This document shows positions 57,965-58,604 of a DNA stretch of 64,000 nt, piece by piece. The notes beneath the pieces were generated by a model. The model was not told the origin of the DNA. It saw only the letters and a list, made by a program, of their open reading frames with translations, and did not search any database. Source of the DNA: Pantoea piersonii (lineage in GTDB: Bacteria; Pseudomonadota; Gammaproteobacteria; Enterobacterales; Enterobacteriaceae); assembly GCF_003612015.1 (NCBI RefSeq), contig NZ_RARB01000004.1:372001-436000 (forward strand). Direction: 5' to 3'. A program made the translations under genes and the position numbers. Position 1 is the stretch's first letter. Each line of letters begins with the position of its first letter.

Positions 57965-58338
57965 AGGTAGGCAGTTTAGATGGAACGCGCTGCGTTCGCT
58001 TCTTGCGCCTGGAATAAAAAGAGATAAACGAGTCCGCCGCGCGGGTTGATTCATCATGGGTAGAATTTACGGGTTTGGCTGTTAAGTGTAATTCTGCCTT
58101 TTCACCAGAAAGCCGCGGGCATTGCTTCTCCAGGCTTTAGAAAGACGCTTCGCTGGAATTCTTCCCCCTGGCTTTCATCTCCTGTCTCTCCTTCGAGAAC
58201 TTCCGTTTACCCTTTTTTCTGCATGAAATATAACTCATTGAAAAATAATAGGTTGTGTTAAGGGTAAATAAAAGGGTTAAAAGGTTCATATTGCTGTTTT
58301 TGTTTGGCAAATGAGTTGGTTAGTTTGATAAGGTAACG
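57965..58338 (+). other. Non-coding region and AT-rich CRISPR leader
   Basis: The first part has a short GAACGC/GCGTTC stem (57983-57997) that may end the kinase operon. From about 58200 to the first repeat the DNA is markedly AT-rich (runs such as TAAATAAAAGGGTTAAAAGG), unlike its GC-rich surroundings, the expected character of a CRISPR leader with a promoter. No gene is visible. Confidence 0.6.
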
Positions 58339-58604
58339 GTGCACTGCCGTGCAGGCAGCTTAGAAATGATGGGGCGTCGTGCTGGCTGCATGTTGTGGGT
58401 GCACTGCCGTGCAGGCAGCTTAGAAAAGATACTTAATTACGAAGAGGGCTATCGCGAGGTGCACTGCCGTACAGGCAGCTTAGTAACGGAGAGAGAAAGC
58501 GCAGGCGAAGGGAGAGAGGTGCACTGCCGTACAGGCAGCCTAAAAGTGTTATGCGTGATTTTTTACTCGTCATTAGTTGTACTGCCGCACAGGTAATCTC
58601 AAGC
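58339..58604 (+). CRISPR. Type I-F-like CRISPR array, 4 spacers, no adjacent cas genes
   Basis: Four 28-nt repeats start at 58339, 58399, 58459 and 58519, exactly 60 bp apart, followed by a degenerate fifth at 58579 with a 2-nt deletion. The repeat begins GTGCACTGCC, has the CTGCC-GTRCA-GGCAG hairpin and ends TTAGAAA, the type I-F form. Spacers (58367-58398, 58427-58458, 58487-58518, 58547-58578) are all 32 nt, the I-F length. Repeats 1-2 have GTGCAGG and 3-4 GTACAGG. Repeats decay rightward, so the leader is on the left. About 106 bp to speD hold nothing recognised. Confidence 0.93.

Follow-up and report, generated by a model that had tools for sequence, protein, structure and literature searches.

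A cas-less type I-F CRISPR array in Pantoea, most likely a remnant comparable to those of Erwinia and Escherichia coli

A short type I-F CRISPR array without accompanying cas genes raises the question of whether it is still in use, serves another purpose, or has outlived the system that built it. We examined such an array in a stretch of 64,000 nucleotides (hereafter the window) on contig C22 of a Pantoea genome of 4.85 Mb, a draft assembly in 27 contigs rated 100% complete. On the evidence set out below, we consider it highly probable that the array was inherited as a satellite of an I-F system since lost, and that it is inert in this strain.

Among the hallmarks that assign an array to type I-F is a repeat of 28 nt that resembles GTTCACTGCCGTACAGGCAGCTTAGAAA and folds into a hairpin (5-bp stem, 5-nt loop). 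Four repeats in the window (R1–R4; Table 1), spaced at a period of exactly 60 nt, have this sequence character and form the hairpin, which the fifth, degenerate repeat (R5) does not. All three spacers between intact repeats are 32 nt long. R5 lies about 2 nt out of register, so that the last spacer measures 30 nt, unless R5 has itself lost 2 nt; the exact 32-nt spacing proposed in a preliminary description of this DNA therefore holds between R1 and R4 and breaks down at the distal end. The same description had divided the repeats into a GTGCAGG pair (R1 and R2, identical to each other) and a GTACAGG pair (R3 and R4), a division that we confirm, with the addition that R3 and R4 combine the A form of the loop with mutated 3' ends, a decay that had gone unmentioned. 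If cut by Csy4, a transcript of the array would give crRNAs of 60 nt with a CTTAGAAA handle. The window holds no further I-F repeat, and a genome-wide search for other arrays of the same repeat, which had been suggested earlier, recovered nothing beyond R1–R4 at up to 3 mismatches; a reverse-read control pattern gave 0 matches in the genome, which excludes chance as the origin of the array. As a side observation, positions 58339-58596 constitute an 85-aa open frame with HCRAGSLE-like repeats, and annotation could easily mistake the array for a gene of a hypothetical protein.

Table 1. Features of the type I-F array and its leader in the window.
Feature	Position	Strand	Description
Leader	58209..58338	+	ACCCTTTTTT...TTGAAAAATAA...AAAAGGGTT...ATGAGTTGGTTAGTTTGATAAGGTAAC
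Repeat 1 (leader-proximal)	58339..58366	+	GTGCACTGCCGTGCAGGCAGCTTAGAAA; hairpin and 8-nt handle intact
Spacer 1	58367..58398	+	32 nt; target not found
Repeat 2	58399..58426	+	same sequence as R1, GTGCACTGCCGTGCAGGCAGCTTAGAAA
Spacer 2	58427..58458	+	32 nt; matches a phage lysozyme gene, CC PAM
Repeat 3	58459..58486	+	GTACAGG form; 3' handle mutated to CTTAGTAA
Spacer 3	58487..58518	+	32 nt; matches an F-type (MOBF) plasmid element, CC PAM
Repeat 4	58519..58546	+	GTACAGG form; 3' handle decayed to CCTAAAAG
Spacer 4	58547..58576	+	30 nt if the decayed repeat starts at 58577; target not found
Degenerate terminal repeat (R5)	~58577..58604	+	TTGTACTGCCGCACAGGTAATCTCAAGC; Csy4 hairpin broken

The AT-rich leader, located to the left (upstream) of R1, aligns with the leaders of arrays that stand beside I-F cas operons in Erwinia and is conserved at the same site in three other Pantoea. 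Family models for I-F Cas1, generic Cas1, Cas3f, Csy3 and Csy4 found no match in the genome carrying the window, and likewise none in the three relatives with arrays at the same site (G009, G027 and G029), with the E. coli positive control detected in each of these model searches. Csy3 was also absent from a broader sample of 60 Pantoea genomes, and I-F Cas1 never exceeded its cut-off there. As far as a draft assembly allows, there is thus good support for the absence of the proteins of adaptation, cleavage and the backbone. The preliminary picture of an orphan array of four 28-nt I-F repeats with its leader on the left is borne out. The accompanying idea that a cas locus elsewhere in the genome might serve the array finds no support in the same models, and the relic alternative offered alongside it emerges as the best supported. 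A weak Cas1 match, below the I-F cut-off, was recovered from another Pantoea (G015:C13:38316-39080; L035, L036) and probably belongs to another CRISPR type. A Tn7-like I-F3 CRISPR-associated transposon was also considered and rejected, since Csy3 (cas7f) is absent from the genome.

The spacers may offer a view of what the array once encountered, and the previously proposed search for their targets succeeded for spacers 2 and 3 and failed for spacers 1 and 4. Spacer 2 encodes the segment ILNYEEGYRE of a phage lysozyme and aligns with 11 viral contigs at 26-28/32 (4-6 mismatches), all of them with a CC PAM. It also matches a resident prophage-like gene on contig C21 at 28/32 (4 mismatches, three of them within positions 1-8), again with a CC PAM; the product of this gene scores 21.3 against the Pfam lysozyme profile, just under the cut-off of 22.3. 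Spacer 3 has an exact match in a repeated intergenic element of F-type plasmids of Pantoea and Mixta, which occurs in several copies per plasmid, most of them with CC preceding the protospacer. The mobile-element protospacers of both spacers thus carry CC (GG on the other strand), in agreement with the published I-F motif 5'-protospacer-GG-3' (PMC4117759). Spacers 1 and 4 found no target among phages, plasmids or viral contigs; for spacer 1, a search of 392 genomes of the family that allowed up to 3 mismatches was negative as well.

The plasmid element targeted by spacer 3 merits closer description. On a P. agglomerans HJS002 plasmid typed as MOBF, its copies are found beyond TraM and a transglycosylase gene, in the company of small genes and one for plasmid SOS inhibition, surroundings that we read as the putative leading region of the plasmid. 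Copies near transfer genes are represented by L175 731-762, L044, L045 and L181 12001-12032. The element may be a regulatory or single-strand promoter element (for the Frpo single-strand promoter, see PMC11541004); its folding is only weakly better than that of shuffled sequences (z -1.75 and -1.21). A spacer directed against such an element agrees with the report by Westra et al. 2013, as cited in PMC4117759, that CRISPR spacers preferentially target the leading regions of MOBF plasmids. A resident plasmid contig of the same genome, C13, whose products include TraM, a transglycosylase, an LPD29/LPD30 protein and the C-terminal domain of TraI, matches spacer 3 at 31/32, with the sole mismatch at position 27. 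Such a target should draw attack from any working I-F system, and the presence of a near-perfect, PAM-bearing protospacer on a resident plasmid speaks against I-F interference in this cell.

A survey of 61 Pantoea genomes recovered I-F repeats in four of them: that of the window, P. latae, Ca. P. deserta and G027. Each has an array with the conserved leader between deoR and speD, and the latter three possess a second array between lpdA and acnB. In a FastTree phylogeny of deoR and speD, with low support at some inner nodes, the four array-bearers fall into one clade together with G007, the Plautia symbiont and Ca. P. persica. These last three do not have the repeat, and the deoR-speD gap of G007 measures 46 nt. 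No spacer is common to the arrays of the four species, which implies acquisition after the species had split and hence either several independent losses of cas or intervening episodes in which cas was gained and lost again. With site and leader in common and spacers different, these four relatives open the order of acquisition and loss to study. In Ca. P. deserta, GTG repeats of a 14-repeat array are grouped on the leader side much as in the window, and the two forms mix to some extent deeper in the array. The same species displays two other I-F structures, both leaderless. One comprises two repeat-spacer units (120 nt; L038 6032-6151, minus strand, equivalent to L073 8332-8451) inserted in frame in a four-carbon acid kinase gene, where the insert ends in a repeat, with 2 differences, of about 26 nt of the gene sequence; the other is a degenerate six-repeat array on C68 (L173 9728-10054).

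Related loci that retain cas genes were found in Erwinia. I-F cas operons accompanied by arrays occupy the acnB-yacL gap in E. mallotivora and E. psidii and, in Erwinia sp. JUb26, the gap between cueO and a metY-like gene; family models confirmed Cas1, Cas3f, Csy1 and Csy4 in JUb26, and Csy3 and Cas3f in all three. The cueO gap also houses orphan arrays in Erwinia rhapontici and a Mixta, in both cases without Csy3. The cas-less array of the window shares its repeat and leader with arrays that stand beside cas operons in relatives. We had expected the Erwinia cas loci at the exact sites of the Pantoea arrays, an expectation that proved wrong: the Erwinia, Mixta and Pantoea sites fall along one stretch of chromosome in different gaps (acnB-yacL and cueO-metY-like as against lpdA-acnB and deoR-speD). 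As the Erwinia loci occupy neighbouring gaps, identity of site is not claimed.

These observations are consistent with the following course of events. Cas1 and Cas2-3 would once have inserted spacers next to the leader, each time copying the first repeat, and an A-to-G change in the leader-proximal repeat would have been passed on by at least one later spacer addition. Copying of the leader-proximal repeat explains the identity of R1 and R2, and to this extent the earlier argument for activity after the mutation stands; the split fits a minimum of one acquisition, does not imply recent activity and cannot date the loss of cas. The record kept by the array would include a phage lysozyme gene and the repeated element of F-type conjugative plasmids. 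Without Cas1, Cas3, Csy3 and Csy4, no spacers would be added, no transcript cut by Csy4 and no target attacked; as these four proteins are missing from the cell, the array should be inert in this strain, and it is decaying at its distal end. Some features weigh against this reading: the leader, R1, R2 and their hairpins are intact, and spacer 3 is exact in present-day plasmids, so that cas may have been lost recently or may still serve the array in other strains; the unshared spacers of the four species and the draft state of the assembly also count against it.

We judge it unlikely that the array is instead retained as a barrier, its crRNAs turning any incoming I-F cas machinery on the cell's own elements or on cas genes and thereby blocking re-establishment of I-F. 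One pointer in this direction comes from Ca. P. deserta, where spacer 2 of the deoR-speD array, ACAGGCTTTTATTTCCGCGATGGCAGGCGAAG (L038 3260-3291, minus strand), aligns with I-F cas1 of several genera at 3-8 mismatches (best 29/32) with a CC PAM, over a segment encoding QAFISAMAGE of Cas1; among 400 random Pantoea 32-mers compared with the same cas set, none fell below 8 mismatches. This spacer suggests that the anti-cas phenomenon of E. coli extends to Erwiniaceae, and the orphan CRISPR4 arrays of E. coli are described as acting in this manner (Almendros et al. 2016, as presented in PMC8616872). The matches of spacer 3 to the resident plasmid contig and of spacer 2 to the resident prophage would also suit a barrier. 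However, 0 of the 4 spacers in the window match the tested I-F cas genes better than random (best 11-13 mismatches, within the random range), and an anti-cas reading of them was rejected; moreover, the resident match of spacer 2 has three mismatches in positions 1-8, R3 and R4, which flank spacer 3, have mutated handles, and the closely related G007 has no array, indicating that it is dispensable. For the clade as a whole, it is similarly doubtful that the deoR-speD orphan arrays have been kept, or repeatedly reused, as barriers to the return of I-F cas, which in Ca. P. deserta would work through its anti-cas1 spacer and in the present strain by directing any incoming I-F complex at the resident conjugative plasmid and prophage.

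It is improbable that the array is live, with I-F cas genes acting on it in trans from other strains of the species or from DNA missing in the assembly: the intact leader and leader-proximal repeats and the different spacers in each relative would accord with this, but Csy3 and above-cut-off I-F Cas1 are missing from the Pantoea genomes surveyed, the assembly is rated complete, and a target of spacer 3 resides in the same genome. A Cas-independent regulatory RNA locus merely resembling a CRISPR array is scarcely credible, as nothing beyond the persistence of the locus speaks for it, whereas spacers 2 and 3 have targets bearing the I-F PAM in a phage gene and a plasmid, spacers vary between relatives, and a consensus scan of the array region gave no promoter-like site.

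Returning to the inherited satellite array of a lost system, the Pantoea locus is most likely a remnant much like those on record for Erwinia and E. coli. The nearest published case is CRR4 of Erwinia amylovora, left over from the type I-F system found in E. pyrifoliae and E. tasmaniensis (PMC9004355). Both are short leftover I-F arrays in Erwiniaceae genomes without I-F cas, with cas-bearing relatives; CRR4, however, has 5-6 spacers and is stable across the species, whereas the present array has four and belongs to a different genus, in which the array sites are deoR-speD and lpdA-acnB. The orphan CRISPR4 (I-F) loci of E. coli, described in PMC8616872 from Almendros et al. 2016 as small arrays left after loss of all I-F cas, are comparable in being small and cas-less, and the sister array in Ca. 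P. deserta shares with them an anti-cas1 spacer; the window spacers differ in matching no I-F cas gene, two of them hitting a phage gene and a plasmid element instead. The CRISPR2/3 satellite arrays of Pectobacterium atrosepticum likewise illustrate one I-F system distributed over several sites, with distinct leaders that have shared parts, although there, unlike here, the I-F cas operon is present and active (PMC4117759). Pantoea thus joins the groups in which I-F cas genes have been lost and their arrays kept.
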